A stretch of DNA of 64,000 bases from Macrocystis pyrifera (Eukaryota; Sar; Phaeophyceae; Laminariales; Laminariaceae), in NCBI GenBank assembly GCA_031763025.1, contig JASSKH010000026.1, forward strand, positions 9,474,408-9,538,407, given 5' to 3'. Under the pieces are notes generated by a model. It saw only the letters and a list, made by a program, of their open reading frames with translations. It did not search any database and was not told the DNA's origin. The translations under genes and the position numbers were made by a program. This document shows, in pieces, positions 8,001 to 54,617 of this stretch. The stretch's first letter is position 1. Each line of letters opens with the position of its first letter.

Positions 8001-10454
8001 CTTGGAATTATCGTATCAGCTACTAGTTGTTCTTGGTCAGACGGCTTCCGCTTCCGGGCAGCAAGATGTCTGTCGCCTGTTGCCCGTTTCCAATCCACCT
8101 TTCACATATCACCATTGACCAATCACTAAGGCTGTGAGTTGGCTAAATATATATCGCCGGCTAGTTGTTGGTCGGCTATGTGCTAGTAGGTGTTGCAGTC
8201 ACCGTATAAAGTTACATGCGGTAATTATGGCTTGAATTGCGTTTTTTATGAATAAAACCTTATGCTAAAAAGTCAGTTAGTTGGCTTACTTCGCTTCCCA
8301 AGTAACGACTACTCGCAGCTGTGAAGTCCAAGCCGACCCACAGCTGCACCAGTCACCTTCAGCAGCCACCAAGCACCTTCGACTACCCGCCTCAAATTTT
8401 GGTGTCCACAAGGACCTCGCTCTACCGGAACGTGCTACGTGCACGACTCCCAGCGCCGACTTTGAAGACATGATAGATGCGCAACGTGTGCAATGCACAG
8501 GCAGCGCGCTGCAGTATGGACAAGGGCTTTGGGTGTGCATATCGATTTTTTTCACTTTATATATGGAAATGTCGTACTCTGAATGTTTGGCGTATCGTAT
8601 CGAACGCATTTTGCCCCCCATCCCCCTTTTTCGTTTGTTGGCAGCACCTCCCAGCCGCGGATTGCGGAGAACAACTTCCGGCGAAAAGCGCCGCCGGCGG
8701 CCGTGCTAATGACGACGATAGCGACGACGGCAACGATAATGATTATTATGATGACGTGGAAGACGATGACGATGACATGTCAGCAGCAGCAACACCCACA
8801 GCAGCAGCAGCGGCTGGTACGCCGCCTGCAACCGGTGACAACACCGGAGGCGCCGGGGAAGAAGGGAGGGAGAACGGGGGGAGGGGTAAGAAGCCTCGAC
8901 CGCAATTCAAGAAGAAAAAGGGGAGGGCGCGGAGCATGGGCGTGGTGAGCGACGCCCAACTGAGCTGCCCGCTGTGCTTCACGACGGTGTGCCTCGAGTG
9001 TCAGCGGCACGCCTTGTACTTCAACCAGGCGAGGATTACGGGTCGCGCTGGGAAGACTGTTGTATTGTAACCTGTGCGTGGGGGACAAATTACTGCTGTG
9101 CCTTGCCGACGTAGGCTGTTGTTGTTCTCACACTAACTGAATCCCTTCGGGACTCTAGAGGGAACGAAAACCATCGAAAATAACCGACGATTACCGCACT
9201 TGGCCTGGCGAAGCAGCACGGGCTGTTGAGGAGCTGAATGACACGCACGCTGCATCAAACCACGCAGCCGCACTGCTGTGCGCCCCAACTAAATAGAAGC
9301 TGATAAGACGGCACCTGGCATAGCTTTTGTCGCTTTGGTCCACCTACCCCCCAAAAGAGCTGAGTCATCGCCATAATCTAGTCCGTGGCCGCAAGAGACA
9401 AGCTCCAAGTCCTATATTTTTGTGCGTACCGCGATAATCGTGATTATTTTCCCCGCACGCTCTTGATCTGCTGACCTCGGGTTTTTTCCGGGGAGTTTGT
9501 TGAATACCAGGCACTGTGTTCGACATGGTATATGGTAGCGGTTTTTTTCTCTCCAGCAAACGACTGAAAACCCTGCGGTAATAGCTAGTATTAATAGTAA
9601 CTTGTTGAATTTACCTGGGCCGATGCTGTTGTGTTTCGTATACATACGTTTTTTTTTGCCGTCATCACCGCCACACTCCGTAAACGTAGCGCCAGTTTTT
9701 GCACTACACCGGTGCCACAACTTCCAGCCCCCCGCCCCCCCCCCCCGCCTCCTCCAAATCGCGCCCACTCACAAGCTAGTGGAGCCTTTCACACCACGCC
9801 GTTCACGCGCACCCCCCCCCCTCCTCCCCCTCTCCGCCTCCTCGAAATCGTACCCACTCATAGGTAACATTTTACACCACACCGCAACCCTTCCCTCGCA
9901 TCCCCTCCCTCCCCTCCCCTTCCCTCCCTCCCCCCCCCTTCCCTCCCTCCCCTCCTCCCGCCCACCCATCCCCCCCCCCCCCCCCCCCCCCCGCCCCCCC
10001 CCCCCCCCCCTCCTCCTAATGCCGCCTAATCGACCCCCTTTCCCCTAATGCCACTTCATGAATCTCGCGCAAACGCTTCACAGTTCCGCGCGGTGACCGG
10101 CATCAACATCGTGGTCAAGGGCGACGAATCGCTCACGATGGACCAGCTGTCGGCGGGGACACGCAAGCGTCAATCAAGGGGTGGAAAAGGAGTACGGGAT
10201 AATATCGCCATGCGAGCAGCGGCGGCGGCGGCAGAGGAAGAGGTTTCGCCGAAAGCGGGGGGGGGGCAGGGTCGGGGCGTCGAGTGGGGGTTGGCGGAGG
10301 GAGAGGCGGGGGGGGGGGGGCGGGTGGCGGAGGGTGGGGAGGAGGGAACGAGGAGACGTTTCACCCTGTTTGTTGCGGGGAGTGCGACCACCGTGTAGGC
10401 GTTATTGACGAGGAAGAAGTATTACACTTTTTCAACGTCATCGCCTCGGGATGA
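4346..10454 (+). CDS. E2F-associated phosphoprotein (EAPP) homologue
   Basis: Three exons are seen. Exon 1 is 4346-4513 (56 codons, acidic, with DDDLYSSDLDEIDARWV resembling the DELLYDPEKD..WV block of animal EAPP), donor CAG|GTGACA. Exon 2 is 8645-9028 (128 codons: Asp-rich and Ala-rich stretches, then LSCPLCFTTVCLECQRH), donor CAG|GCGAGG, a GC donor. Exon 3 is 10084-10454, opening FRAVTGINIVV and ending HPVCCGECDHRVGVIDEEE then VLHFFNVIASG and a stop. The paired CPxC and CxxC motifs suggest a zinc-binding C-terminal domain, as in EAPP. Exon 3 is 371 bp, and its start and end lie in different frames. Two G homopolymers, near 10258-10266 and 10308-10320, fall between, so a one-base length error or variant is the simplest cause; a small unrecognised intron is the alternative. 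EAPP is a nuclear regulator in animals; its role outside animals is unknown. Confidence 0.87.
5004..5069. repeat. Uninterrupted run of 66 G
   Basis: Sixty-six consecutive G within EAPP intron 1. Such a tract can form quadruplexes and is hard to sequence, so its true length is uncertain. The surrounding 4514-5270 has no recognisable gene. Confidence 0.95.
6437..7180. mobile_element. ~740 bp terminal-inverted-repeat element in EAPP intron 1
   Basis: The left end, CTTAGGGC then AACAAAAATCATGATTCGTGA at about 6438-6483, is matched in inverse by the right end AATCGTGATTTTTGTTCGCCC then TTAG at about 7155-7180. Internal hairpins of TCACAAATCGTGATTTG type lie near 6490-6550 and 7045-7160, and a GC-rich core (GGCCCGGCCCG) sits at 6650-6680. 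No transposase is seen, so it looks non-autonomous. Target duplications were not resolved. Confidence 0.6.
8127..8345. mobile_element. AGGCTGTGAGTTGGCT-ended inverted-repeat element
   Basis: It starts AAGGCTGTGAGTTGGCT and ends with its degenerate inverse, AGCCGACCCACAGC, about 300 bp before EAPP exon 2. The interior repeats TAGTTGGCTTACTTCGCT, also found at 19450-19480. It is related to the better-preserved copy at 20734-20985. Confidence 0.55.
9971..10012. repeat. Interrupted poly-C tract
   Basis: Two long C runs separated by single G/T bases, about 70 bp upstream of EAPP exon 3. They may contribute to the polypyrimidine tract of the intron's acceptor CAG at 10081-10083. Confidence 0.85.
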
Positions 10455-10494
10455 CACCGCCGCCGTGACGTGTTCAAGATACAGAAATGCAACT

Positions 10495-10848
10495 TCTTAA
10501 TTTCTTTATTTATTACCTGGTACTTATTTATTTATCATCACTATTACTTTCCAGCCTAGCTCGTAGAAGTTTTTTTTACTCTCAGCGATCTTCTGGACAA
10601 GCCGTGGTCAAAGGTGTCGTCCCTTCTCCCCCGGTACGTGCCTTAATTTTTTTGTCGCGCATATGGTTCAGAAATCCCACTGCTCGTCGATTTTTATTGA
10701 ATGTTGCTAACTCACGCTCTCGCGCTTTCCGCTAATCAATTTGTATGCAAGAAAAAATCCTCACGAGTATGCACTCGGTGAGAGTCGAACCTACGAAATT
10801 CATCTTGATAGGCACGCGGACCACCTACCAAGCCACCGGGGACGCCGG
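10495..10848 (-). mobile_element. tRNA-headed SINE, copy 1
   Basis: On the minus strand it begins GGCGTCCCCGGTGGCTTGG and carries a B-box-like GGTTCGACTC followed by TCACCGAGTGC. A ~230 bp unrelated body follows, with GCGAAAGCGCGAGAGCGTGAG and CACGGCTTGTCC-type segments, ending in an A/T-rich tail. It shares head and body with 54181-54513 and body with 53049-53307. A Pol III A/B-box head, a common body and an A-rich tail is the usual SINE structure. It lacks the fold needed for a functional tRNA call. Confidence 0.7.
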
Positions 10849-11399
10849 CTAAAACTTGAAGGACGAAAGCCAATATATTTTTATCGTCATATAGTTTGCA
10901 ATCGCGGTGCGTGCGGCCTTTTCGCCGAACGCGCTCCCGGAAAACATTAAAGAATACCTGGTGAATTGGTGAAGGTAAACCTAAAGCCCGGAACCGACGA
11001 GGGTATATGGTGGTGTAGTGCTCTGCATCCCTGCCTCCCTGTGTAGTAGGAGGTGTTTCCTCGCCGAAAATGACAACCAATGTCGAATACGGTGGAGTAT
11101 CAGATACATAGGAGCTGTGTATAGGCCGTGGCCCAGCTTTGAAAAATGGTTAAAATACACGTGACTCTAAATACCAACCCTAACAACCATGACTGCCTAG
11201 GAAAATTCTCGGCATTCAGTTTTCATGAGGAGTTTGTGCGCACTATGAATCAGTTTGTTGTTCCTGGGTCGAGTGGTGTACGTATTCCTCAGCTTTCCCC
11301 GGGGTTCTGCGGAAACCCCAAACGTATCGACCTCGAAAAAAAACTTTAGATGGTATACCGAGAGATGTGCTTTCCGCCAGTCGACGGTGTGCCAGATAT

Positions 11400-12060
11400 C
11401 ATAGTGGTATATAGGGGAAATCCGCCACAGAAAACCAGCTTTCAGTAAATACCGTCGAGCAGCGAGACGACTCTCTTTCCGAAGGTTCAGTAACGCCACA
11501 TCACAACAGCAGATGAGCAAAAACGCCGCTACATCAGGAGATACCATTGAATGGAGAGCGAGATTACTTTTTCTGGGGGATCGGCAACGGCAAAACGCCA
11601 CGTCACAAGAGATGGGCAAAAACGCCACCGTACCATGGGATATCGTTTGAACGCATAGAGCGAGTTCACTCTCTTCCTAAGGGATCACAAACGCCTCCAT
11701 GAGGCGGCACCATTCTAAGTTACGCCCACAAGTTGCGTGTGTTGCCGATCGATGTGGATTTAAAACGTCGAGGCTCATAACCTGTCGATATAAGGCGGCG
11801 TGCCGAGACTCTGCAGTTCTTCTCACGAAGACCCGAGAGCCTCGACACGCACCATTCCAACAAGGGACAAAAACGTCGCCATTGTTCCAGAGGATGATAC
11901 GAAACTGAGGCACCCACCCACCCTCGTGCGAAGCCGATAGTGCTCCGGGGGTCAGCGCGCGCCCAAAACGCTGAATCCAGGCCGGAAGACTCGAGAAAAA
12001 GACAATGACAGCTCCACAAAAAATGCCTGCAAAATCCAAGAGATAACAGCGACACCTGGA
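11400..12060. repeat. Degenerate ~115-125 bp tandem repeats
   Basis: Units share phrases such as GGGCAAAAACGCC, ATCAGGAGATACCAT / CCATGGGATATC and GAGCGAGTTCACTCTCTTCC, at about 11475, 11590 and 11660. Weaker copies reach 11880 (GGGACAAAAACGTCGCC). No gene is recognised. Confidence 0.5.
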
Positions 12061-14100
12061 GGTTTGCAGGGTGTGAGGTTTGAAAAGCGATGTCTACGCA
12101 GTGTGATAGGGCAACAAGCACCCGGCACGGGATGCTGGGAAGGTCGGGACTAACATCATCTTGATGCTACATGTAGGGGGGCATTGATGTCGCCGAGCAA
12201 GCGTACTTCGTACGTACATTTTTTTATGAATAATCTTCAATCGGCACCTATTTTTTCCCGCCGGCAAGACGTGTGTGTAAGGAAATAGACGGGTCAGGGG
12301 GTAAAAACAAAAATAGCCCTGCGATAGTCTACGACAGCACCAAAAACACGACGTTTACAGCATGGTAATCTACATCCACGGACAAATTTCGTGCACATGG
12401 TGCGGCATGCTGGGTAATGTATCTGCGGAGCGCACCCGTACGAAGTACGAGTTTCATTTACAGCCAAGCTCCTCGCTTCACCACCGCGCTACTTTTTCGA
12501 CTTCCTTATGCCCCGTAGAGCCGTGTGATCGCGGGCCGGCCCGCTGCCGCTTCGACGCAACACAGGAAACAGTGCGATCAATAGTAGCACTCTACTACGT
12601 GGGGGCGAAAGTAGTAATCAGAACCCATGATGGACCCTCTGATGTTTACCCACCATATTTTGTTATGAGTACTATCTTCCCCCGAAATATTACGAGTGGG
12701 CTAATGTTATAATCAGAACCCACGATGGACCCGAAAACAAGGTATCCTCCTATGTTTAGGCACAAACTTTGGTTCAGAGTGCTAGATTACGTTTATATTA
12801 CAGTCGTGTGAACCCTTGCGGCCCTTCAGAAGGTATAAAGGGCGGCACAAAACGACGACTACAGCGTTGATCACAGGAAGCAGCCCACGTATGGTAGTCT
12901 GCCTGGTCGGTCTGCCGGAAGAGAGGGTGGCATTACACATCCGTACTGAACTACACGGCCCGCGCGCTGCACGGCACTACTGCTCTACGAGCGTAAAATC
13001 CTTGGCCGCCATTTTTTCGTTCGGCATTCCTGCGCCCCAAACGGATTAATCGATTAATCGCGGTACGCATGCTCCTCCTACTACGTACAGCAGAATAGAT
13101 AGCGAAGGAAACTCCCCTACGAAATGCTACAGAAGACACTCCCCTGAAAAAAATGCTGTTTATACCTGGTATTAAATAATCTCCTTACAGTACTACATAT
13201 AGTGCCTTGATTGACACCTTCCAAAACAAAGTGTTACACAGTGGTGGTAGAAAATTCTGCTATGGACCGGATCCTTCCAACGCCCCTACAACAATACATT
13301 TCCTGTCAATAACTATGCTAGACAAGTTCCTGTGGACGGTTGCACAGGAGACATGCTATTACAAAGGCTACAAGTGCATATCAATAGCGCTATAAATAAC
13401 CACTATATACCTCAAATATTCAGTGAAAATCCGACGATATAATATTGCAGCAGACACCGCCCCTACGGCTATCAAAAGGCACAACCCTACAGCGGAAGGA
13501 TTACTAGCTAGACATATTCCCATGATACAATGAAGTACACACTCTTCTACGAAAAAAGCAGTAGCCGCCTCACACAGCAGTAGACGCTCTTCCGCGAAAC
13601 ATTAGTAGTAGACACTCTCCTACAGAGTAGTATCGACAACGCTAGACACTCTACCATAGCCCATACAGTAGACGCCCCACACAAAAAATACAGTAGACGC
13701 CCTCTTACGATATCCTCATAAAAAATAGCATAATGTTACAGCGTAGACAAATTCTCCATTACTACAGCAGTGTACACGCTCGCCACCCTTCCTACAGAAG
13801 GCGGCAAGGCACCAGAAAGTGTCAAATCACACCAAACAAACCAACCACCCCACACACCGTCACACTACGCTACACCACATCACCCCACGCCACCACCGCC
13901 GTACAACACCACACCACATCATGACACCTACACGACGAGGCGAGTTAAACTAAAAACTGATATTGGGTGGTGGCAATGGTCTATTTTGGTTCTCCGAGAA
14001 AATTTGTTACCTTCCTCTCTTTCTTTCCCCAACTTCCTTGTATCTATATACTTGTTTCTCTCTCTCGCTCTCTCTTCCACTAGCCCCTCCCCCGACTACG

Positions 14101-28515: not shown

Positions 28516-31500
28516 TTACTTGGTCTGCGCTTTCACCGCCTCAATTCGTGCGCGGATTCCAGAAACGTCGCCGAGGTAGCGCGCCGAGAGGGGAGGGATA
28601 GCTTCCGGGTGAGCAATGGGCTTCAAGTTCTTGTCCAGCTCGAACACAAGCGGCACGCCTGAACAACACAAAACAAAACAGCGTGAACAAAAAGAAGATA
28701 AAAATATGGGGTTTGTTAGGCTGTTTCCTATGCGGTTCGATTTTTGAGCTTCAGATTTTGACCCGATCGCATTTTCAGATGTGAACTTGGCAAATAAAAA
28801 CGGTCCTGCTACGCGAAAAAAAACAGATTTATTGAGCGTGCAGAGTGCAGAGATTCGAGCAGACGCCGAGACCAACCGCTGTTGTTGTGGTCTGGCGCCG
28901 TGAAGAGACGCGCTGGATGCGCTGCACTGCGCGTAGGACCCAAGCGTCCGAGCCAACGCTGACTGCCTCTGGTCTGGCGGCGAAGATACGTGCCGAGTGC
29001 GCTAGCGTCAACCTGTCTTGGTATTTTGTATATCACAATGTGACTGACTGCCGCTGCTGCTGCTGCTGCTGCTGCTGTACGACTGTAGTTTGGCCACGGA
29101 GAGACGCGCCGCCCGCCGACCACGCGTCGGGCGCGAAGCAACGTCGCTGAACAGCTGTGTCTCCATCAAACTCATCGATCGTTCTGCTGCTGCTTGCTGG
29201 TCGTGGATAACATCTTGATCTCAGAGACATGCCATCTTTCGATTTGAAAATCTGATAATCCAAGTCGTCGGATTTGGGCCGAAATCTGACCACTTGGGCC
29301 ATCGGATTCTCGAATCGAAAAAATTCCGGTCAGATTTTGCATATTCGGATTGCATAAGCAGATGCTTTCAGTTTTTACATCGAAAAGTACAAATCTGAAG
29401 CTCGTTTTTGAGACAATTTCGGGTCGGAACTTCATTCCAGCGCCTGTGTTATTTCGCGTGCTTCACGGTACACTACATACACATGGCATTTCAATAAACC
29501 CCCCTATATACATGTGCTCTAGTACAGTTCTCTAAGCTACGCTACGCTACACCATACTCCACTACCTCCACTCTAATACACCTGCGAAGTTAGAGGCACC
29601 CTTTTCGAAATGCCACCTTGAAAACATCAAATAATTGGCTACTGTAGACGCGGCCACTATTATAGTTGATAAAACACTGACTACTACCGTAGACTTTGTA
29701 ATATGCATCATGTTCCAGCGAATTGTTAAAAAAAGAGCTCAACCTCACCACACTTCCACGTTCAAAATTCGTGTCGTGTCTCAATTTAACCCGCTCTTCC
29801 GTAGAAACAATATCGTTCAGCCCACACCGGTGGGGATGTCCAAGCCGGTGATCTTCACTACACTACATTTCACCCGTAGTTTACAAATTATACTGCTGTA
29901 GACAATATAGCTCATACACTATGTACGTGCACACCATTAATATACTGCAGTAGACTACCGTATCACGTGTGATATGAACACCCCCTATTACGGGGGACCA
30001 TAGTAAATACGACCAAACAGTGTTAGTAAAAATCGGGAAATATATTGTTTTTTTTATATATACCATAGGTCCTATTAACTATGGATCCCCGTAATACGAC
30101 GAATGGCGAAGCTTTCTAGACCACGGGGAGAGAACACACGCCGAGTGATGCATCTAAAGGCCTCGATGAGATATTTCCAACGCTCCCACTCTGGCTGCGT
30201 GTGCCCCTCCTGTGTTGGAGAAAGCCGGCCGCGAAATTCGTCCCGAGAGGGTGTGATACCTCACCACCCGTGCGATACGGGTATGTACACGTTTGATACA
30301 ACACACTTGAAGGCAGGACATACACACCACCTGGTAGAGGAGATAGCGTGCTATATACGGTACACTACAGCGTGCACACCAATCTGGGCGGAAATATAAG
30401 GACCGTTGGGCATGCATATTAATTCTTATACGGCCCCTTGTACTTTCGCCCAGAATGGTATAGACTAGAGTAGACTGCACCCAGACTCACTTCATTATAC
30501 TACTGTACAGATGACAAAATCAGGACTGCACTCACGTCTTTTAGGGAACGAATTACTTGGAATTAGTGCGTGGGGTCATTTTGGCAGTACCAAACGGGTT
30601 GAGAGCTCTCCGCCCACGATTTTTGGGGACACTTTGCTGCCAGGTACGGAGTATTACACGCGTTGACTCACCGGTGGGGATGTCCAAGCCCGTGATCTCT
30701 TCGTCCGAGATCTCGTCCAGGTGTTGGCACAGCCCGCGGATGGTGTTGCCGTGCGCCACGATTAGCACGCGCTTGCCGCTCTTGATGGCCGGGACGATCT
30801 CCGCCTCCCACTCAATTAGGAAACGGTCCTTTGTCAACTTTCGACGCGAACAAAGTACGGCAAGGCAAGGCAAGGCAAGGAAACGCAAGGTTAAGGTAAG
30901 GTCGAGTGGTATGGTAAGGTAAAAGTAGTATGGTAAAGTGGGATGGTAACGCAAGGCAAGGCAAGGCAAGGCAACGCAAGGCAAGGCAACGCAAGGCAAC
31001 GCAAGTAGCAAGACGCCCATGGGTACGCAGTCGAGCAAGACGCCTGTGGGTGCTGAGGCAAGCGCTGTTGTGCGAAAAATTTTGCAGGCACGAGGTACCT
31101 ACCCGGGAGTACAATGATAACGAAGACGAATACACCCCCCAAAAACACAAAATCAGATAGTACGAAAGTGTCGACTACATATGACGCGTTCTACGATAGA
31201 GGTAGCATATATCCGCTAAAACGGTACGGGGCTTTTTTTAACCCAAAATCGTCGGAATGCCAATCTTGTTTCGAAAAATGACATAATTGTATACTTGGGC
31301 CATGGGATTATCCATCGGGAAGCAATTTGATTTTTGCTGAAGTCAGTTTTCGGGTGATGTATGGAGCTCCTTAAGTGAGGGGCCTCAGGAAAAATACGGT
31401 GAACCTCTTATCGTAGAACGCCTCATATGCAAGCAGTCATTAAAATACTTTACTTGCGTTATACTTCCAAAGTACAGCTGACTATACGTACAGCCATTTG

Positions 31501-34500
31501 ATATTCTTCTAGTTAAATTATATTAGCAAAGTACTGCCGTGATTTCTTTCCTAAACGCGATACGAGGCAGGTCGAACGATGCCCGGCATCCCTTACGCCC
31601 ATCTACACGACACAACCAAGTATGATACCTGGTATGAAGTACATATATGGTACGAAGGAACCCTTCGCGAAACGACAACGTAGGTCGCCTTATGATAATT
31701 TCTCCTTCCAAAACGTTACGGCCTAAACACAGACGCCGGGCCGTGCATTACGAAACATGCCCATTCCAGCTTTCATTGGATCGAAACCCCATACCTTGAG
31801 AGACTCCGCACGGGGCAGGTTTTCCTTGGGGATGCCGGCGTATCGGCGGTCAAGCTCGGGGAGCTGGTCGCTGCGATTGCGCAAATAAAAAAACGTGTCA
31901 ACAAATAAAGGCGAGCTCAGCGGCGACATCGGGAGGAAAGGATAGCAGAGAACCACAATACATATGTACAAAGAAAGCTGTAATACATCAAACGTGAAAA
32001 TCAACCACCAAAAGAGAAAAAAAACGACAACGAAAAAAAAAAACCATATCTCTGACCCGAAATATAGGGACCGTTAGCATATAATTGTTCAATCAAAATG
32101 ATCCTTATATTTTGAATCAGAGTGGTAGCACAAAATAAACCAAAAGTATAAAAAAATGAAAAACCATGAAACCAAAATCGAAAAAGACACTCAGATACAT
32201 CGCCGGGAGCTCGTGGCTGTTAGCCCATTTGTGTTCACATTCGTCCTGTTTGGCATTTAAAACCAGAACGCTTAATATAATCGAGAATGACTTTGGTAAA
32301 CGCGGCATCAAATGCCCCCCTCCCCCACGGGGCTCTATTTTTCATTTTTCTCGTAGCTTAAATGTTTTGACGTCCCGGTCTGTTCGGGCTTGAAACTGCA
32401 AGAAGTATCAGTACTGCAATTCACCTTACAAGTGCACCCATGTTCAAGGGTAGAAATTACATGGAAAATAGAAGTAGTCGTACAAGGGTTAACCTTGTAT
32501 ACGCAACCTCTTCTACAAAACGTTAACTCCGTTCTGGAGACGAACCACTTCGAATTTTACAGTACTCTGATATTCGCAGGGAAACTTTTGTTCTCAGTCT
32601 TCAAACTCTTTACAACGCTGTGCCACCGTGCTGGGAGACGAACGGCATGGAATTGAAGTACGCTAAATTTCGCAGTATACAGAAGACGTTTCTTAACCCC
32701 TCTTGACAAAGCCGTACCCCCGTTCTGGGGACAAACCGCCTGGATTTAGAGTACGCTATTTTCGCAGTAGACTAATGGGTTTTAGCATTACAGCCCCTTG
32801 ACCAAGCTGTACCCCTGTTTTGCGACCACTTGGAAGTACAGGACGTCGATTTTCCCTGTTGAGGGACCAACTTCGAAGTAGAGCACGCTGATTTTCGCAG
32901 TAGAAAAAACATGTTATAGTCTTAACCCCTTTACAAAACTGTACCTTTACAAAACTGTACGTACCTCCGTTTTGGGGACTAATCACTTGGAGTTAGAGTG
33001 AAACCAAAATTCGCAATACCATACTGTACAAAAAAAAAGGTTTTCAGTATTGACGTATTAACCCCCCCTCGACAGCACTGTACCACCGTTTAACGCACAA
33101 ACCACATGGAATTAGATAAGTACGCTAATTTCCGCACTAGAAAAAAAGGGCTTCAGTCTAAACCCCTCTTCACAAAACTGTACCGACGTTTCGGGTACAA
33201 ACCACGTGTTACTAGAGTGGCCTAATTTTCGCGGTAGAAAACAAGGGTTTTACCTTAGCCCCCTTCGCAAAACTGTACCCCGGTTTTGGGGACAAACGTT
33301 CGGACTTGAAAATCAGAGTACCTGGTATGATAGTTTAATCTGCAGTCAAAAGTAAATCGGTGAAAACCCGCTGGTAGCTTAAGCCTACAGAAAAAGACAG
33401 CCACATCTTGAGAGGTGTGTCAGTACGAGCACGTAACATGCTAGCGCGACCGAAGTCGCAGCAGCAGTCGGTTCTGCTGTAGCAAACGGGAGTGACGGGT
33501 TAAATTGACACATGGCACGCATTTATATGTTCAAGTGTGATGAGCTCGAGCTTCAAACCTAAACCAATCCGCCGGACGACACGATAAATAATATAAACAC
33601 ACGTACAGTACCTGTCGTCATCAAGTAAAGGGGGAGGAGTGGTGTAGCTCCTGCGCCAGATCATGACCTGGTCCATTCCGTGCTTCGCCACGGTTTGTTT
33701 CTTGTCCAGTCCCTAAAAAAAACGAGATCCGGTCACACCAGACCGCACCACACCACGGAATATCGACAGGCAACGGTCCGGTGTCAAACGAGATTTAAGT
33801 CTACGATACACAATCAAACAAGACTCGTTCAATGCCTGGAATGCCCAGGCCACACCTACTGCAGTGTTGGGTATCGATATCAGAGTCGAGTTCATGAAAA
33901 ACTATCGTATTCGATACGATCTCGATATTTGACAGATTGACGCTTTTAGTATCTGCACAAAAAACAAGAGAGAATGCCTGGGAATGGAGGGCAAAACTCG
34001 TTTGATACGCCGATCGTTTCGGAGCATCGGGAACATTCGACACGATATTCAACACTAGTGGGCACCACTCCACCGAACGACAGGCATCGGCCCAACGAAG
34101 ACCGGTAACCAATCGAGCTACAATCGAACTTAAAAAAAACATAAAAGACGAAACTAACCAACCCACAATCGCCACCAGCATCAACCATCACCAAATCATA
34201 ATTAACTACAAGTCAAGAACGAAGTAGATCAAACCATTGACCACACATCACACCATCAAATCGGACTTTTTTGGTTTTGTCGACGCCACGGTAGGACCAC
34301 GCAACGCAACGAAACGCAAAACAATGGTAGGAGTAAAAAAAAACAAATATATACCTGGTATATATATTTTAAAAAAAAACAATCATCTCAATTAAGTCAA
34401 CACTAAAAGCACATCAACACTCCAACCTCGACGGCTACGGGGGAGTTTTCCGACTCCTTCACGACGTACCACTCATCTCCAAATTATAAGGAGCATTGTT

Positions 34501-37286
34501 TATCAATAATTAATACCTGGTACCAGGTATGACAATCCATACATTTCGGTCGGGACAGCGTGGTATCACGCAGGTTACAATTGAGGATATTAGCGACCTC
34601 GCACTCACACGAGGCGTACTTTCAGTAACTACCTCGTACACGCTCGAGACATGGGAGACACCCAGACGACAATGAATTGTGATCGTTAGATGCCCTCCGA
34701 TGTTATCAACTATTGTTGCTACTAGTATACTACGAGTTCGAGGTACTCGTATTAGCCTTCGGTCCGATTTCATATTTTAAGACGTGTCTATTGCGTAGAT
34801 TATATGTATCAACATACCATTTCCTTTCGCTGGTCGCTAGCCTTGAGACTATAAACGGCCGGTAGGCCTTTCGTTTTCGTCAGCTGCACAGCACGTCAAC
34901 GGTTTTTACCTTGCGTCACCCCCACCCCACGTCCGAATGCCTCCCTCGTACGGGAAACCCTGTACTACACAAACAAAAACACGATAAAAAATACACCAGT
35001 TTTGTGTCCCACCGATTGATTGAACACGGTAGAAGTCAATACTCCGCTTCGCAAGCTGCGTGATACGCCAGCCTACGCGTCGATTCGGAGGGGGATATTG
35101 TTCCACTCGTTCGCCAAAAAAAAGTGTAAAGGAAAGAAACGACAAGCCTACCTGGAGGGCGCCGTAGTGCCTCTCGTTCAAACGCCAACTCCGGATGACA
35201 GGGATCCACATCAAGTCGGTCTTTTCCAGGATGGACCACAGCGTGTTGATTGCTCGCTGCGCAATTAACAAAAAAACACAACAGTATGGAACACGAACAC
35301 AACAAAAAACACGCAGAAAAACAAGTAGTACACAGGACATAAACGCAAAAAAAAACGCAAATAAGAGAACAGCAAGAAAACATAAAAGACAAGAAAAACA
35401 CACAAAAACGGGTATCCCGGGTTCCGGTAGCCAACATCACGACATGGCAGAGCACGGCACATGAGAGAGAGGGAGGGAAGCGGGGAGTAGAGAGGGATGG
35501 GCGGAGACGATGGTAACGAGTCAGCAGCGGATTGGACCCTGCGTGGCGAAAACGAATGATAACACGAAAACACACAAGAAAAAAAAAAATCAGAAGAAGT
35601 GGAAGAGACTCGAGCTTCGCCCTCCCCGACCATGGAATTTAGAAAACGAAATCCTCAACAAAAGAAAAATAGGACACCTCAGCGTGAGGTCCAGAACTTC
35701 GTCGAAGCTCATTTTCTGCGCAATAAGTGTCCATTTCGGGTGCTACGGGGGTGCATGGCCTCATTAAACATGTATGATACGACTCTGGACGGAAGCGCAA
35801 GGACCGTTCTGTCTTCATATTGACGTTGACACACACCCTCCTTATATTTCCGTCCAGAGGGGTAGGTCGGTGACCACCCTCGGTGACAGTAAAAGGGTCA
35901 CCAGGACGATATTTTGTATGCTCTATGCAGCAAAAACAGCAAAAAAAGGAGGGCTACGCTGTGGATAGGGACACGTTGTACAGTACTACTCGGACTTTCA
36001 GCTGGGAAAAAATTACAGGAGGAAAAGGGTACATACAACTTGTCTCCGACTATTCTATACGAAAACAGTACCCTTAGAGGAAAAAGGCTGCTCACGATAC
36101 GAGTTGAGCAGGAAAGAAAAAAGAGACAACGAAAAATAGATTTAACTTAACTGTGATCCCACGTAGTTTCGTTCCGAAAAACATGGGAAAAGTCCTTACA
36201 TGTGTAACACCACTCTTGGGGTCGGAATAGAAGGGTCGTTTTGCCATTAATATTTCATCCGAATCGTCTTTATATTAGGCGACAGAGTGGTATAGGTGTG
36301 CGTAGACACCGACCGACGAACCTTGAGTACCGACGTGTAGGCCACGTCGAAGGTGAGGCCGGACTCGGCGATGAGGTCACCACACTGCGCCGCCTCCTTA
36401 ACGCCCTTCTCCGACAGAGGCACGTCCTTCCACCCGGTGAAACGGTTCTCGTTGTTCCAGGTACTCTCCCCGTGCCTGGATAGATGAACAATAATATGTA
36501 AAAAAAATGAAAAAATGAAAAACTGAAAAAATAATAAGACAACAAAAAACGGCGTTGGTCTTGCCTGACGCTCCGAACGTCAACACCCAATTCTGCTGCG
36601 TTAATGACAACGAGATACGTTGCGCACGACCAAACCTAGGCATCCGACTCGCGCGCAGCAAAACAAAAAACAAAAACGAAAGCAATAACACGACAACACC
36701 ACCACACCAACACCAACAACCAACACCAGTCAAAACAGTTACTGATACCGTGACAATCACATCAACCACAGCAACCACAACACAAACGACACAAACAACA
36801 CCATCAACGAAGTAGGGATAACAAGTATGATGCCAAGGAAGAGAGGTATGTAGGAGTCTTCACGGAGAGAAAGTGCGATATTTGTTCCTTCAGAGTGATG
36901 GGATAGAGACTACTAGTACTAGTACTAGTACTACTAGTACTACTAGTACTACTACTACTACTACTACTACGACGTACTACTACTACCACTACTACTACTA
37001 CCACTACTGCGGTATTATACGTAAGGACATTCGATTCAAGTTGCACTGGAACATGAATATACATACCGTATATTGTCGGAGGGCAAAAATAAAAATTAAA
37101 AAAAGAATTAAAAAATGCATCATACGACTCGCCTGACAACCACCACCGTGTAGGTTTCGGGCGCGGCCATCATCATACCACCCGCCCTCTTTCCGGCAAC
37201 AGCGCCCGAGAACGAAAGCGCCGCATTGCCGCGGCTGACCACACGCGCGCCGCCGGCCCTCGCGACAGCCGGGGATGCCACAAACC
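28516..37286 (-). CDS. 2,3-bisphosphoglycerate-dependent phosphoglycerate mutase, probably plastid-targeted
   Basis: Seven exons join in phase: 37286-37133, 36475-36322, 35256-35152, 33712-33612, 31870-31795, 30837-30672, 28658-28516 (stop TAA). They give 298 residues. The enzyme interconverts 3- and 2-phosphoglycerate in glycolysis. Hallmarks are all present: [20 protein letters not shown] with the phospho-accepting His, [41 protein letters not shown] with the second His, LDIPTGVPLVF and ARYLGD. Before the mutase core (Met-Met-Met-Ala at codons 37-40) the first seen exon encodes [20 protein letters not shown], which is basic and Ala/Ser-rich and begins at a Phe, as after signal cleavage in stramenopile plastid proteins. 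A signal-peptide exon further upstream is therefore expected but was not found. Intron 1 has a GC donor (CAG|GCGAGT). The other donors are GT. Confidence 0.95.
29825..29854 (-). pseudogene. Partial copy of a phosphoglycerate mutase exon end
   Basis: Thirty bases in the last intron match 30669-30698 with one difference. On the minus strand this reads ATC ACC GGC TTG GAC and ATC CCC ACC GGT, the ITGLDIPTG end of the sixth exon, with its splice donor G changed from GTGAGT context to GTGTGG. It may be a duplicated exon remnant. It cannot replace the true exon because it is too short. Confidence 0.75.
29987..30095 (+). mobile_element. TATTACGGGGG MITE, copy 3
   Basis: ATTACGGGGGACCATAGTAA and its inverse (with GGATCCCCGTAAT) bound the family core. 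It lies in the last intron of phosphoglycerate mutase, ~130 bp from the partial exon copy. Confidence 0.9.
30377..30462. mobile_element. ~85 bp hairpin MITE, copy 2
   Basis: Arms CTGGGCGGAAATATAAGGAC and ACTTTCGCCCAGA then ATGGTATA are inverted around an AT-rich loop with ATATTAATTC. It lies in the last intron of phosphoglycerate mutase. Confidence 0.75.
30861..31010. repeat. AAGGC/AACGC pentanucleotide repeat
   Basis: Roughly 150 bp of AAGGC, AACGC and AAGGT pentamers. The repeat begins ~25 bp upstream of the sixth mutase exon, so on the minus strand it forms the pyrimidine-rich tract (GCCTT)n leading to the acceptor CGAAAG. It may serve as the splicing polypyrimidine tract. Confidence 0.9.
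32043..32129. mobile_element. ~85 bp hairpin MITE, copy 3
   Basis: The left arm TCTGACCCGAAATATAGGGA then CCGTTAG pairs with the right arm GATCCTTATATTTTGAATCA then GAGTGGTA. It lies in the mutase intron between exons 33612 and 31870. Confidence 0.7.
32450..33310. repeat. Tandem array of ~100 bp units
   Basis: About eight degenerate units share CAAAACTGTACC, CCGTTTTGGGGACAAACCAC, TTGGAATTAGAGTACGCTAA, TTTTCGCAGTAGAAAA and TTTTAGTCTTAACCCC. It lies inside a mutase intron. The GTTTTGGGGACAAAC.ACTTGGAATTAGAG portion is the same as in the GGACTGCAGTCC hairpin elements at 46438-46622, so the array probably grew from one of them. Confidence 0.8.
33863..34056. mobile_element. AGTGTTGG-ended element, short copy
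   Basis: Ends are AGTGTTGGGTATCGATATC and GATATTCAACACT (inverse of AGTGTTGAATATC). The interior has ATGCCTGGGAATGGAGGGC, also found subterminally at 60398 and 63970. It lies in the mutase intron between exons 35152 and 33712. Larger relatives are at 59089-60487 and from 63053. Confidence 0.65.
35775..35866. mobile_element. ~85 bp hairpin MITE, copy 4
   Basis: Arms ACTCTGGACGGAAGCGCAAG then GACCGTT and CCTTATATTTCCGTCCAGAG then GGGTAG are nearly perfect inverses. This is the clearest copy. It lies in the second mutase intron. Confidence 0.85.
36206..36296. mobile_element. ~85 bp hairpin MITE, copy 5
   Basis: Arms ACACCACTCTTGGGGTCGGA and GGCGACAGAGTGGTATAGG sit immediately beside the second mutase exon; its right end is ~26 bp from the exon boundary at 36322. 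It may affect that intron's donor context. Confidence 0.65.
36910..37012. repeat. (ACT)n / ACTAGT microsatellite
   Basis: About 100 bp of ACT/CTA triplets with ACTAGT hexamers, in the first mutase intron ~120 bp from the GC donor. Ser/Thr/Tyr runs in its open frames are artefacts. Confidence 0.9.
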
Positions 37287-37960: not shown

Positions 37961-38888
37961 CTGATGACAGTACTCACTCAGACTGATCATTGTATACCTC
38001 AAAATGTATTGCATTGCAGTTCCAAGTAGTTTGTCATCATGACGAGTTGTAAAGGGGATTATAACACACCAGGTATAGCGTAGTACAGGCACATTTCGGC
38101 ATTCCACCTGAAACGCCTTCCTTTCCTGTTGAAATCCTCTGAGAACCGATTCACAATTTTCACACAACGTTTCGGTTGTTTTTATTTGTCGGGTTTCAGT
38201 TAAACTTTCCATTTCCTCGACACTGTCTCTCGAGGTTTGCGCGTAGGTGTCGGGTGATCTCAATTTCACATCGAAGTACTTGCCCGGACTCCGGGGACGA
38301 GAAGGACGGAACGACTCTTTGCTTCCCTGCTTTTTACTCATTTGTTTGTACGCATTTCGACGGACAAAAAAAAAAATGTACATACCACACCCACGTACCA
38401 GGCACTACATAATACCGGTAAGTCATGTCAATTTACTGACACAAAAACAAAAGGGCTGAAGGCGTACTTCGTATAGTTGAGATGGATACACGATACATAG
38501 AGCGGGCGGGGGTGTGTACTCTCGTACTTGATCGGTTTCGCAACAAAAGAGAGGTGCAATATAATTCCAGAGGTACACACGAAATCATCGAAGAGTACGC
38601 GCGCCCGAGTGCGCGGCGGAAACTATTAATGGCCTCCTTTGGAATTAACTGCTGGTCTTCAACCACTTCCTGGGGGGATGAAGCACTTGGAACCACTGCA
38701 GAGAAGGGCATTTTTACCGCAGCGGCGGCGGCGAAAGGGTTGACTTACTTTTTCAAAAATTGTCCCACCCACACAAATTCGAAGCAGTTTTGTCACCTAA
38801 AACATACTAACTGCTGCACTGCTTGCTGTACATGAACTACTGTACATCTGACCCCAAGCACGAGTAATTTGCCCACAAAACGCGAGTG

Positions 38889-39470
38889 CAGTCCCGTTTT
38901 GAGGACAAGCCTACTTATTTTCGGGACCGCAGTCCCGTTTTGGAGACAAACTACTCATTTTTTGGCACCGCAGTCCCGTTTTGGGGACAAACTGCTTATT
39001 TTTGGGACCGCGGTCCCGTTTTGGGGGCAAACTGCTTATTTTTGGGACCGCAGTCCCGTTTCGGAGACAACCTCCTTATTTTTGGGACCGCAGTCCCGTT
39101 TTGGGGACAAACTACTCATTTTTTGGCACCGCAGTCCCGTTTCGGGGACAAAGTGCTTATTTTTGGGCCGCAGTCCCGTTTTGGAGACAAGTCACTCATT
39201 TTTTGGCACCGCAGTCCCGTTTCGGGGACAAACTGCTTCTTTTTGGGGACCGCAGTCCCGTTTTGGGGACAGACTAGTTATTTTTGGGACCGCAGTCCCG
39301 TTTTGGAGACAAAGTACTCATTTTTTGGCACCGCAGTCCCGTTTTGGGGATAAAGTTCTTCTTTTCGGGACCGCAGTCCCGTTTCGGGGACAAAACTCTT
39401 TATTTTTGGGACCACAGTCCCGTTTGAGGAGACAAACTACTTGTATTTTGAGTGGTTTGTCTCCAAAGCG
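38889..39470. repeat. 41-bp minisatellite, ~14 units
   Basis: GCAGTCCCGTTTTGGGGACA then AACTGCTTATTTTTGGGACC recurs every ~41 bp from 38889. The last unit runs into GTTTGTCTCCAAAGCGGGGC then AGCAGTCCTAAAATGGTTAA, the expected right end of a GGACTGCAGTCC hairpin element. The unit has no stop in any plus frame, so a 251-codon open frame crosses it; that frame is not a gene. Confidence 0.9.
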
Positions 39471-40329
39471 GGGCAGCAGTCCTAAAATGGTTAAATACCA
39501 AACAAGAAATTTGACGAGAACGAAACAAAAAGAGGCCGAGAGAGGGGGCGGGAAAGTTGGCGGGACGCGCCGGAACTACTACTACTACTTCTGTGTTAGT
39601 ACACATGCTACGTACCACTGCTAACATCAACATGGGACATATTTTGTGGGCGGTGCGAGACAGGCCGGAGGCGCGTGTCCCGAGCGGGGACTTGGCAAAG
39701 ATAACCTTCAGGAAGCGGAACAGGACGGCTAACATAGCATGAATGATAACGATACCTTCCTGGGAGTTCAGACGGGAAATTTGTCGAACAAATGAGATGA
39801 GAGACAGGTCAGAGGCACCGTGTCACGAGCGGGGAATTGGCACGGGTTAACCGGTTAGATCAAGCTTCGGGAAGCGGGACGGGACAGCAATAACACACGC
39901 ATAGCACGAACGAAACCTTTTGGACTTCAGAGGGAAAAAAATGTCAAAAGAGGAAATTGACGACTATATTGGGAGATGTGAGCATTGGACCGACCAAAAG
40001 TACCAAGTGTTGCTGCGTCGCGCGGAGCAACTGAATAAATCATACTGCTCCACGGTGGCTTTGTGGTTTACCTAGAGTACAAGACTTGGAAGACTGCTTG
40101 TTTGTACAGCCAAACCTACTCTATGCTATTTCTTCACGACACAGCACGAGGGCCTGAGCATTGGCGACAGCACGAAGCAGCCCGGGTTGGTGGGGTAGGG
40201 GGTACATGCACATATGGGATGTACCCGAAGTGCAATCTAAAGAAACTCCCCACACGCGCGCGCGGCACGATGACACTTGCACTCTGTTGCATGCTCTCCC
40301 TAAAAAAATGATAAAGATGCGTTTTTCTG

Positions 40330-47580: not shown

Positions 47581-47668
47581 CGCGGCTACGCTCTCGGAAA
47601 GGTCACACTTGTCAGTAACTGCTGTATCCCTCATCGCCATTGTAAGCTATTAATCATATAAACATAGT

Positions 47669-48663: not shown

Positions 48664-48790
48664 CTACACCACCCTGAACAAAAAAACAAGAACCGTTTTG
48701 TATCGGTAGGCGTGTTGGTTCCGGGGACATGGTATCCACAGTTTGGTCTTATACTCCAACGGTCCTCACATTTCCTTGTAAAACGGTAGA
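48664..48790. mobile_element. Possible ~85 bp hairpin family member with an insertion, copy 8
   Basis: ACACCACCCTGAACAAAAAA then ACAAGAACCG on the left faces CAACGGTCCTCACATTTCCT then TGTAAAACGGTAG on the right. The arms fit the family but the spacing is ~40 bp longer than usual. Confidence 0.35.
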
Positions 48791-49042
48791 CTTTTCTACT
48801 GCAAAAATTACCCCACCCTAAATTCCGAGAATCGTGTGTCTCCCCTCGCATCTATCTCGAATTCTAATAATTGGTCCCCCCCCCAAAAAAGCAGTGCCTA
48901 AAGGGGTTTTGCAGGAATTGTGTATCGAAAACATTAATATCCATAGTACGTAATTGTAGCTTGCTGCTGCGTACGATATTTTTCTTTTTCTTTTTCTTTT
49001 CTTTTATCCTCCGGCGGATTGGGAAAAATAAAGCTTAATTAA

Positions 49043-49125
49043 GCTTATGTAATGGTATAACCTACTGAGCTACGGGGGTAAAAGATCGATCGATTACCCA
49101 GCCCAGGGTAATCCTTGTAACACTC
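49043..49125 (-). mobile_element. tRNA-like second SINE family, copy 1 (fragment)
   Basis: On the minus strand: TAAGGATTACCCTGGGCTGG then GTAATCGATCGATC, then TAGCTCAGTAGGTTATACCA with an A-box-like TAGCTCAGTAGG. The same leader and A box occur at 55585-55700 and in part at 55836-55925. This copy lacks a B box. Confidence 0.5.
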
Positions 49126-50215
49126 GCCACAGCAGTCGCTGTTTACGATCTGTTGTTGCTTCGGGCCGCTTGGGTCGGAACGGTTCAAGCTCTTGTATCG
49201 TTTTATCTCCCGCCGCCTCCTGGTGGAGAGCCGTACCGCAGCAGACCACTTCGCGGTACAAACAGATCTATACCTGGATACCTGGTACCTGGTACGTATT
49301 ATCCTCCGATAGCACTCGCGTATCTGATATACAAACGTACTCGTACTTACAGCATACATGAGCAACAAATATCATCCTCTTACTATTACTTTTTAATAGC
49401 GGGTCGAAACGCTGAGCAGAATCATCCATACGCTGGATGAAAAGTGAACTCGAGAAATCCAACCGCGATATATTGCGGCGGTATGTTTGTTACTCATGTA
49501 GCTGGCGGGAGTTCAGGGGCTCGGGCCGAAGACTATGACATGTGTTGCAATGGAAAATCGGCCGACCGTTTCATCCCGAGCCATCCTGTAAGCGGTTGCG
49601 CGATGCGGTGGGGCGATCAAGTGGCACTGCTGTGTACCTGCGGCCCCTTGCTTTTGCTACGATGAACATACCATACTACTGCTGTATTAATAGTCATCAG
49701 TATAATACGTCGTACGTACTGCTGTACGTATAAACAGCAGTAGTACGACCAAGGCGGGGATGTGAGAGCAAGGGGAAAACTTTGGAGTATTGTGCTGCAA
49801 CCGAGAAAAATCGAGGCCGCCTCTATCACGCTGGGCACGGACGTCCTCGCCTGTGCGCGCAGCGGTGTGCCGTAACATGCTCTTCGAGAGGGGAAGTTCG
49901 CGTGGATAACTAGGCAGTCGCGACAACGGTTCGGAGAAGCTTTGGGGGGAAGTGGGTGGGCGAGGGGGGCGAGGCGACATGAACTTTCAGTTTGTGACGA
50001 TGATCTCTCTGCTTTCTGGCTCTGCCTGCTGGGTGTCGGATGAACTCCGCGGGTTTCTCTGCGTTTTCAGAAACACGTAACACACATGACGATCTTGATC
50101 TCGTGACAACTTGCGGAATACCGCCGCCGCTACAAACAATGCAGCTAGCTCATGGTGTGCAGTGCTTGCGGCGTTTGTTGGCAAGCAGCACACGAGCATG
50201 CTTGGGGTGGGGAAG

Positions 50216-50233
50216 GGGGGGGGGGGGGGGGGG
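50216..50233. repeat. Poly-G tract
   Basis: A run of about 18 G in noncoding DNA upstream of RagA. Confidence 0.9.
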
Positions 50234-50398
50234 GACTGGCTGTGCGCACCTACCTACCTGCTGCTTCTGTTTCAAAGAAGGTGCAGGAAAGGATTGCGGG
50301 ACAAAAAAAAAAGGCCTGATTACGTATCAGGTCACGAGTACGTACACACCCAAAACACTACACCAAGCAAAGACAAAACTGAAAAATCAACTATTTAA

Positions 50399-50490
50399 AA
50401 CCCTTTCAGAACCGCAGTCCCACTTGGGGACAAACCAGTCAAATTCCAAGTAGTTTGTCCCCAAACTGGGACTGCAGTCCTTAAAGGGTC
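50399..50490. mobile_element. GGACTGCAGTCC hairpin element, single copy
   Basis: ACCCTTTCAGAACCGCAGTC then CCACTTGGGGACAAAC is inverted in GTTTGTCCCCAAACTGGGAC then TGCAGTCCTTAAAGGGT, around the short loop CAGTCAAATTCCAAGTA. The ends ACCCTTT/AAAGGGT define the full element at ~92 bp. Confidence 0.85.
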
Positions 50491-51688
50491 AAGAACTGCC
50501 AACATTTATTTACAACATCAACCGCCAACACTCCGACCCACCTAAAGCCGCTCTCGCTTGGAGGAGGAGGCACGCCACCACCGCTTGGCCCTGCAGCGGC
50601 ACCGACGATTGTGGCAGCAGAGAGGCAGCGGCGCAGTATTAATATGATACAGCATCGTCTCACACAACGCTTGTGTCTTCAAGCAAACAGGAAACGGCGC
50701 AGTACGTTACTTTCTCTCACGTCATATGTACGCAGATGTTGAACAATAAAATGTGTTTCGTGCGTTTTCTTCCTGGTACAGGAACAAAAACCTGAACATG
50801 CACGTGAAGGGACAGCGCGCGGGTGTGTACTGCTGTCATTCGGTCACATAAATCAGCCTGGATATATGTTGAGAGAACATGTTTTCGTTTCGGCATTGCA
50901 AAGTGATGGAATGCCATGTTTGTTTTTTCCGGTGAACCGAATGCCACTCGTGTTTGGCATCCGTGTGGCAATCCGCGGCAATGCATCAGCATGCGGAACC
51001 CCGAGGCTTTCGTGCTTTGCATCGTCTCATCGTCTCGTGGACAGGAGACACGCGCCGAGGCAGTTCAGGGTAAAATATTGCCGTGCAGCAGAGGCGAGAT
51101 GGCTGCGTTGCCACGTGCGACAGCCGCTCGCTTGCTTCGATAAACGACAACTCACCTTCATGGTTTTGCTCTGGCAGGATATCCCGCGGTACGGACTACC
51201 AGAGACGATATCACGCGAGCAACGGCACGAAGCGACGAGATGAGTGATGTGGGCAGCGGGGGAATTTGCTTCTTGGCGGGTGGTGTCTGGTCGTTTGATT
51301 GCCGGTTTGGGGGGACATCAGAGGATTTCTTGCCGCAATAGACACGCCGCCAGGAATGATCGAACACCGAGCGGAACCTCCAGCAGCATCAGCAGCAGAC
51401 GGCCATACTTCTTAAGTTCTTGCAGCAGCAGTAGGGCTGTAGTAGTACACCTCCAGCGGGCTCTCCCGCCAAGCACAACAACCGAAGTGGTGGCAGTCTC
51501 CTCTCGAAGGAATTCGGACGGAGATTTCCTACCTGCGGCATTGTGTGCGGCCCCTACAACACGGCCGGCTTCCACGCTTGCAAACAGAAAAAGGCGGAGT
51601 AGAAGGGCGAATAAAGCCCAGCAGACCGTCCGTCCGGGACGTGGAGTGCCTCGGTCGTCGTGTATCTCGTTGATCGAGCTCACTCGTC

Positions 51689-54586
51689 ATGAAGAAGAAG
51701 GTGTTGCTCATGGGCAAGTCCCGATCGGGCAAGACCTCGATGAGGTCCATCATCTTCGCCAACTACGCCGCCAAAGACACCATGCGGCTTGGTCCCACCC
51801 TGGACGTTGAACACTCTCATGTCAGGCAAGTACCAAAGTGACCGTATGATACCTCTACCCGACTTGTACTGACTACCCACCCATGATATGATACCATGGC
51901 CATGACCACGACCAGCGTACAACGTAAGAACGTGCCAGCTCTGAAGTTGACATTTCAGTGTATAAAATCCAAGGGCTTCGCGTACTAACATTTTTCGCCG
52001 ACCCAGATCAATTCGTCAGTGCTTTGCCAGCGCGCATGTCGAGGACGGGGGATGGATCGCGCATGTTTTTCTACCAAGCAGGACTGCTGCTGCTGCTGCT
52101 GCTGCTGCGGCTGCTGCGGCTGCGGCTGCTGTTGTACGAGTGTGTGTGCTTCGTATCCCAGTCGAGTGAGAAGTTCCGGTTTCTAGATTGCCCTAGGGCT
52201 CTGTGGTGTACATTCTCGTTTCCCGAATGTTCAAATTTTCGCGTGATTCATCAAGTCGGTCTCCCAGGTTGATGATGCCTGCTGGCTGCCGACCGATGCC
52301 TCGCTTTCTCATCCTCAGAATTGCCCCTCACACTCTCTAACAGATACCTGTGTTATATTCTGCCTTTTGTCTCTATTAATACTGAACTAAAATTAATAAG
52401 TGTACTATAGATACCGTGATGATGCTTGTGTGTACAACACCAGTTAGTACCCGTATGATATCATAACGGTAAATGGTGCCAGGTACTCCTTGCTGTCTGT
52501 GTACCTCGGTATCTACCTGGAGTCTTTGATACCTGTCGCGAAGAAATGGCGCAGCAGGATACTTGTTCCTGTCGTCAACTTGTGTGCGTCGGTGGACGGC
52601 AAACCGGCACGTCGGACGCTCCAGGCAGCTCAAAAGGCGTACCTGGTACCTGGATGCACCTAATATTGGGCGCCGTCAAAACTCGACTTCGCTCGCAATC
52701 ACAAGCCAGCGCAGCACAAGCACGCTTTCTTCGTTCACTTGAATCTTCGGTAGCGGCGAGTAATTCCACTACTCTTTGGCGCTATGCATAATAGTCCCAC
52801 GGCCGCAGCAGAAACAACACGCATCAGGTAAACAGAGTACATACTATACATGCACGCACACACGCACGTTCACGTGTTCACATGCACCAGCAGCACCAAC
52901 ATCAGCACCCAGCCCCAGCACCACTTCGCATCAGTACGTAGTGCCGCATCTCTTAAGTATACCAGGTACCTGGTGTACCAAGTACGGCAGTGTTAATTAC
53001 GGGGGTCCATAATTTTATTTTTATTTTTTTGGCTTTTTTTTTTAGGACCTATGCTCGCAGGGACTTTTTCTTGCATAAAAAAATCATTAGCGGAAAGCGC
53101 GAGAGCGTGAGGTAGCTACATTCGATGAAAATCGACGAGCAGTGGGAAGGCTAAACCCTATGTGCGACAACAAAATAAAGGCATGTACCGTGGGGGAGAA
53201 GGGACGACACCTGTGACCACGGCTTGTCCGTCCAGAAGCTCACTGAGGGTAAAACCTCCTACGAGTTAGGCTGGAAAGTAAAAGTAATTGAAAAAAAAAA
53301 AAAAAATGGTTTACATAAAAACTTACATGTTTACCGATTTGTACTGACAACATTTGGTCGTATTTACTATTATGGTCCCCCGTAATATTAATAGTGTAGA
53401 TCATCTGTGGGTTGGTTGATACATGTCGAAATCAAAACTAAGCTCCGTTCTTTGCTGTTTGCCATCCATGGCCGTTGTCGTATTCCCACTAATTGGGAAC
53501 AAATTTGTTCATACAAAAAAAAAATCATCTCCTTTTTTGTCCGCGCTGATGCTATTTTAATAGTCAGTTACCTGGTAGTTCCCATGTATATATCATATGT
53601 TCGAAAAAGTAAGGACCGTTTGTAATATTCACATCAATATCCAAACGGTCTTTACATTTCCGGATAGGGTGGTTGTTGCATCGTGCTTTCGTTTGTCCGC
53701 CTCCCGCCTTGGTTTGTTGTACGTCGTATTGCAGCCTGCCCTCAACTTAACTCAGTTGTCGTGAAAAATTGTTCAAAACTTTCTGCCCAAACTTGCATGC
53801 GCGGCGATACTTGCTTGTTTTTAATAGTTGACATGTCAGGAGACGTACAACAAGGCGAAACGTGGAAATGTCAGGAGACATTTATTAATAGAACAAGGCA
53901 AAACGTACGGTGTCAAGGGTGTAGGGCCGAGTGTTCCACGCTACGTACGAAAACTTTATGGTTTAGTGGCATTAAAAGCATGTCAAAGGCAAAAGTTGCT
54001 GTCTGTCGAGGGATGGAAGTACTGCTGTCTCTTGGTATATTCGGTTGTTATCGCACGCTAAAACTTTCATGTAGTAGCGATACCTATTATAATACACTTA
54101 CGTATGAATATAAATACACAAATTTCACAGCTTACTCGTACGTTGTTGAAAAAAAAAGAAACGCATAGAATATGTTTCCGTTTTTTTTTTTTTTTTTTTT
54201 ATCATCACTTTTATTTTCCAGCCTAACTCGTAGGAGGTTTTACCCTCAGCGATCTTCTGGACAAGCCGTGGTCACAGGTGTCGTCCCTTCTCCCCCCCGG
54301 TACGTGCTTTTATTTTTTTAATCGCGCATAGGGTTCAGCATTCCCAGTGCTCGTCGATTTTCATGGAATGTACAGCTAACTCACGCTCTCGCGCTTTCCG
54401 CTAATCAATTTTATGCAAGAAAAAGTCCCTACGAGCATGCACTCGGTGAGACTCGAACTCACGAAATTGATCTTGATAGGCTCGCGGACCACCTGCCACC
54501 GGGGACGCCGGATACAACTATTAATATCAAGTTGAATGAATTGCCCCCTCGTCGTGCCTTCGATTTTTTTATCTTTCCATCTTTTG

Positions 54587-54617
<31 letters not shown>

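Follow-up and report, generated by a model that had tools for sequence, protein, structure and literature searches.

Three GC-AG introns in one window of the Macrocystis pyrifera genome and a probable excess of GC donors beyond it

Introduction

Three introns that begin with GC lie in one stretch of kelp DNA (hereafter the window; 64,000 nucleotides, C207:9474408-9538407), raising the question of whether this genome accepts such donors more readily than most or whether a few rare introns happen to lie together. According to Iwata and Gotoh (2011, PMC3033335), the GC-AG share is usually 1.3% over 61 species, and Frey and Pucker (2020, PMC7072748) put it at about 1% or less in model organisms. 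The assembly from which the window comes has 537,376,219 bases and 223 contigs; Table 1 of the genome report (PMC10498591) lists 537 Mb, 223 contigs, and 50.37% G+C. No brown-algal GC-AG figure was found among the open-access papers listed, and a term search of brown-algal genome papers likewise returned none.

Results

Junctions of the three window introns

Kelp exons were aligned with human RRAGA, PGAM1, and EAPP, and frame-consistent junctions were scored; inside the window it was the protein match, not the splice context, that decided where each intron was placed. The initial annotation had placed GC donors at 9029 in an EAPP-like gene, at 37132 on the minus strand in a phosphoglycerate mutase (PGM) gene, and at 51826 in RagA, and in each case the GC-AG junction was the best protein-fixed one, so that on sequence evidence we regard the three introns as confirmed (Table 1, in which a slash marks the splice site, as in the text). 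The PGM junction scored 60 compared with at best 29 for GT-AG. For RagA, the GC-AG reading scored 65 and the best GT-AG reading, which carried four inserted residues, scored 51; a CA-AG reading scored equally and gave the same product by a 3-base shift, but without donor context. For EAPP, GC-AG scored 42, followed by AG-AG at 31, and a frame-consistent GT-AG junction was absent within the range searched. The EAPP acceptor side reads CACAG/TTC, and the junction product is CQRHALYFNQ/FRAVTGI when compared with human EAPP.

Of the three introns, that of EAPP is the least certain, because the match 3' of it is short (human YRAMFVM versus kelp FRAVTGI) and the strong C-terminal match lies in a different frame. 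The frame of that C-terminal piece differs from the one at 10084, so that the coding sequence must either be spliced again or lose its frame downstream; a second intron, a homopolymer of variable length, or a broken frame may account for the change. A long G run is present between the exon start at 10084 and the piece at 10350 (window 10084-10448). Elsewhere in the window, a repetitive ORF with tandem FGTAVPFWGQT-like units occupies 38836-39624 on the plus strand. The second intron of RagA, with a length of about 15.7 kb, covers window 54763-64000 and continues to about 70.5 kb, and the gene extends to about 80.7 kb (window numbering). A Pfam scan of 10 window ORFs gave no family at 0.01, and an Rfam scan of the window gave nothing at the gathering threshold.

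Table 1. Coordinates of exons and introns in the window
Feature	Position	Strand	Size and phase	Splice sites	Remarks
EAPP-like gene, exon end (CPLCFTTVCLECQRHALYFNQ)	8966..9028	+			tblastn, E 1e-6
EAPP-like gene, GC-AG intron	9029..10083	+	1055 bp, phase 0	CAG/GCGAGG...CTTCACAG/TTC	
EAPP-like gene, beginning of next exon (FRAVTGINIVVKGDESLTMDQLS)	10084..10152	+			junction scoring; row end need not be the exon 3' end
EAPP-like gene, C-terminal piece (EETFHPVCCGECDHRVGVIDEEEVLHFFNVIAS)	10350..10448	+			E 1e-8; frame differs from 10084
PGM, GC-AG intron 1	36476..37132	-	657 bp, phase 2	CAG/GCGAGT...TATCCAG/GCA	
PGM, remaining exons and introns	28519..36475	-		donors 36321, 35151, 31794, 30671 all GT	junction 4 uncounted
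RagA, exon 1	51689..51825	+			E 4e-20
RagA, GC-AG intron 1	51826..54656	+	2831 bp, phase 2	CAG/GCAAGT...GGAGCAG/GCT	
RagA, exon 2	54657..54762	+		GT donor GAG/GTGTGT at 54763	

Eight donors were resolved within the window, three GC and five GT (the four further PGM donors of Table 1 and RagA 54763); the count omits PGM junction 4, the remaining junctions of EAPP, and two additional genes, one of them PX-like. The initial annotation had taken about 11 other donors to be GT, which held for these five, the remaining six or so giving no resolved junction, and its ratio of 3 in about 14 accordingly keeps its numerator and becomes 3 of 8. At least three GC donors in eight would arise by chance with P = 5e-5 at a 1% share and 4e-4 at 2%, values that are not a fair significance because the window was picked for these introns.

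Donor counts outside the window

Homology-resolved junctions in the 200 kb around the window yielded 15 GT and 0 GC donors (PPIE, EXOSC10, STAMBP, RagA, and NELFCD). A TFIP11 gene in these flanks, identified via the PDB match 8ro2_TF (E 1.7e-34) and with its exons linked by coding score and splice context, yielded 11 GT donors and one GC donor among 14 exon pairs; of the two pairs dropped, one was a GG/GT near-tie and the other had a top-ranked GC donor in poor context, with an exon probably missing. Against human TFIP11, the counted GC donor (CAG/GCGAGC) scored 49 versus 43 for GT. The flank total was therefore GC in 1 of 27 resolved donors. No usable junction was obtained for 10 of the 30 pairs in the homology set, among them STAMBP 113/126 (AA above GT), RsmG (GG top), RagA 263/253, PGM 129/138, and EAPP, the last of which was resolved by separate scoring; for NELFCD, three of four pairs were left out.

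The CCT/Cpn60 genes provided the sole genome-wide sample. A whole-genome search with the Cpn60_TCP1 family returned 54 exon matches, covered by 54 short regions, and 23 of the 26 pairs adjoining in the profile were resolved (L071-L072, L082-L083, and L087-L088 were left out), with 18 further pairs skipped for a profile gap. These junctions comprised 21 GT and 2 GC donors. The donor dinucleotide itself was unscored, and for both CCT and TFIP11 calls the context was scored alike for all dinucleotides; at L079-L080, CG ranked above GT and the donor was entered as GT from the CCT3 sequence. The two GC donors were GAG/GCAAGA in a CCT7-like gene (junction ISMSQDAE/VGDGTTS) and CAG/GCGAGT in a CCT8-like gene (junction YKHGESQ/TGLDQYAI), and GT was absent from all 19 and 57 frame-consistent candidates, respectively. 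VCP, CLTC, ACTB, and the tubulins were compared with 264 kb only.

Several other exon ends resemble GC donors and were not counted. An EXOSC10 donor, CAG/GCAAGG at 113341 (window numbering), is suggested by context and coding edge and was kept out because homology gave no decision. The tail of a CCT6-like exon (L067, contig C218) is followed by CAG/GCAAGT, probably a GC donor, the next exon not having been found. At 99444 on the minus strand (window numbering, L015), an exon ends in GAG/GCAAGT, a likely GC donor in a sequence without a homologue. A 40-kb stretch of contig C190 was rejected as a junction source, its low-complexity ORFs giving no usable junctions; long Q/E-rich ORFs of this kind fill about 10 kb at C190:3,018,904-3,028,805 (L033-L034).

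Pooled outside the window, GC occurred in 3 of 50 resolved junctions (6%, 95% interval 1.3-16.5%), a result with P = 0.014 at a true share of 1%, 0.027 at 1.3%, and 0.078 at 2%. The CCT set alone, picked regardless of donors, gave 2 of 23 (P = 0.022 at 1%), and adding the EXOSC10 donor gave 4 of 51 (P = 0.0017 at 1%). Window and outside together held GC in 6 of 58 junctions.

One alternative is that GC donors in kelp amount to an ordinary 1-2% and that the window is a chance cluster, of a kind bound to appear among many windows. The window was indeed selected, its flanks gave just 1 of 27, the strict unselected sample is compatible with 2%, and the window (3 of 8) differs from the outside (3 of 50) by a Fisher test (0.029) in which the window side had been chosen for its GC donors. 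Shares of 1% and 1.3% are nevertheless disfavored by the pooled sample, and 1% also by the CCT set on its own; furthermore, the uncounted EXOSC10 and CCT6-like donors look like GC as well. We consider a chance cluster improbable, though not negligibly so. The genome-wide GC-AG share is probably above 1%, a few times the usual, and we infer an estimate of roughly 3-12%; a share of 20% is not supported. The proposal in the initial annotation that this genome uses GC donors freely, far above 1%, is thus supported in part by unselected junctions, with an effect smaller than 3 in 14; the share near 1% that it named as its refutation is disfavored, a share of 2% is not.

Repeats within the introns

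The GC introns might instead be introners, introns of recent transposon origin; in Micromonas, many GC donors lie in introner elements and 53% of one introner class is GC (PMC3879977). In addition to this precedent, CAGGC occurs at both ends of the PGM and RagA introns and could be a target-site duplication, and the GC intron of TFIP11 ends in a dispersed repeat. The CAGGC repeat is, however, absent from EAPP, TFIP11, CCT8, and CCT7; the EAPP and PGM introns had no repeat match in the approximately 355 kb searched, a small part of the genome; five introns contained no long terminal inverted repeat (best 20-base end match of 9-12, a figure without a random baseline); and the five donors had no common sequence beyond the splice context. 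Introners are therefore an unlikely source, as judged within those 355 kb.

Partial repeats were found in the same sequence within the RagA, TFIP11, and EXOSC10 introns, those of RagA and EXOSC10 having repeat stretches in common. The TFIP11 repeat (L029) spans the last 320 or so bases of the intron at 79-87% identity and ends just before the acceptor; further copies lie near window 2731 and in L033. In its main text, the PNAS introner survey (PMC9860276) makes no mention of Phaeophyceae, Ectocarpus, or Saccharina.

Donor context and U1 snRNA

All six GC donors read AG/GCRAG, whereas AG/GTRAG was found in only 6 of 52 GT donors (Fisher 2e-5); excluding the three from the window, the comparison is 3 of 3 versus 6 of 52 (Fisher 0.003). 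Matches to the U1 complement at the other eight positions were also more numerous in GC than in GT donors (Mann-Whitney 0.00095). The remark in the initial annotation that AG precedes the GC and that the remaining positions are consensus thus applies to all three window donors. A strong flanking consensus is typical of ordinary U2-type GC-AG introns. The compensating AG/GCRAG context is as expected of genuine GC donors handled by the major spliceosome. Under another explanation, the donors have been placed wrongly and the true sites are GTs nearby, the C is a sequencing error, or the genes are broken. In its favor are the equal-scoring shifted reading in RagA and the frame change further downstream in EAPP, but EAPP, CCT7, and CCT8 have no GT-AG alternative, that of PGM is far worse, and six of six GC donors in one strong context are unlike errors, so we give this explanation the least credence of all.

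The same annotation had called for a check of the U1 snRNA. Rfam RF00003 gave 14 matches, 13 of them above the cut-off, and all 10 of the loci that were read carried the normal 5' end, ATACTTACCTG; an altered U1 is therefore not needed. The matches are clustered at C189:22.14-22.20 Mb (six) and C206:3.48-3.50 Mb (five), with two more on C191 and one on C214. As established from the genome assembly, junction positions, donor contexts, and U1 genes agree with U2-type GC-AG introns: the introns start with GC, end with AG, and restore the reading frame, their donors lie in a strong compensating context, and the 10 U1 loci have a standard 5' end. U12-type introns were considered and rejected, the donors (GCGAGG, GCGAGT, GCAAGT, GCGAGC, and GCAAGA) not being of the ATATCC type described for the U12 5' splice signal (PMC3033335).

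Gene-finder comparison of dinucleotides

A reference-free gene finder, too noisy for a rate, was used only for comparing dinucleotides, GT being allowed together with one of 15 alternatives at equal prior under two settings. GC gave the greatest score gain in both, with 158.7 in the first (GG 139.0, AG 135.3) and 106.3 in the second (GG next at 83.9). By number of intron calls in the first setting, GG (45), CA (43), AG (40), and CG (38) all exceeded GC (34). In the strict setting, [ACG]AG/GXRAG (or AT) contexts, tallied for four dinucleotides, made up 7 of 20 GC, 0 of 19 GA, 3 of 24 GG, and 0 of 14 AT calls. When all 16 dinucleotides were allowed at once, GC was barely prominent: after filtering it had 6 calls versus 5 each for AG and GG, and then 5, equal to TG, and without the filter the second setting gave more TG calls (7) than GC calls (6). 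One GC call from the all-16 run, at 123309, was contradicted by homology. The comparison gives weak support to GC donors.

Discussion

We assign a probability of about three in four to the reading that these are ordinary U2-type introns with C as the second base, recognized by a standard U1, at a share raised across the genome. The normal U1 snRNA would pair with a GC donor despite one mismatch because the AG before and the RAG after keep the site near the U1 complement. The sites are presumably spliced as drawn, with U1 as the likely recognizer, and the GC introns would extend beyond the window to housekeeping genes on several contigs. A known intron kind is thereby found in a lineage for which we encountered no report.

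We hold a bolder version more tentatively, giving it somewhat less than even odds: kelp-type brown algae may splice GC-AG introns at 5-15%, with balanced G+C and without introners, owing to a tolerant U1 snRNP. Such a snRNP, used to weak average donors (as in the GT set above), would also accept GC. If the 5-15% figure is true, neither explanation offered for Aureococcus and Micromonas would apply, because G+C is balanced and introners are lacking. Gene predictors that allow GT only, or GC with a 1% prior, would cut short or displace a noticeable fraction of the gene models in kelp. Were the share confirmed, a brown alga would offer a mid-G+C test case for acceptance of C at intron base 2 by a normal U1; what permits this acceptance is a question left by Micromonas and by Aureococcus, which is also a stramenopile.

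The kelp introns resemble the U2-type GC-AG introns that animals, fungi, and plants carry in their GC donor, AG acceptor, and presumed use of the major spliceosome (PMC7072748), and differ in frequency, about 1% or less there compared with the 6% (1.3-16.5%) estimated here. In the copepod Eurytemora affinis, GA and GG donors account for about 12% of introns (PMC5714493), and a U1 variant is suspected (PMC7072748). This case is similar in that a single class of non-GT donors has increased in a particular lineage and can lead to faulty gene models, but the dinucleotides are different and the kelp U1 genes that were read are normal. Closest in kind are Aureococcus anophagefferens (39.6% GC-AG, 69.5% G+C) and Micromonas pusilla (22.2%), for the latter of which Iwata and Gotoh thought the U1 sequence an unlikely cause (PMC3033335). 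Both exceed the usual 1.3%, as kelp probably does, and U1 is not blamed there, as the normal kelp U1 5' ends would also have it; their genomes have 66-70% G+C, compared with 50.4% in kelp, and the kelp share is lower and accompanied by no clear introner signature.
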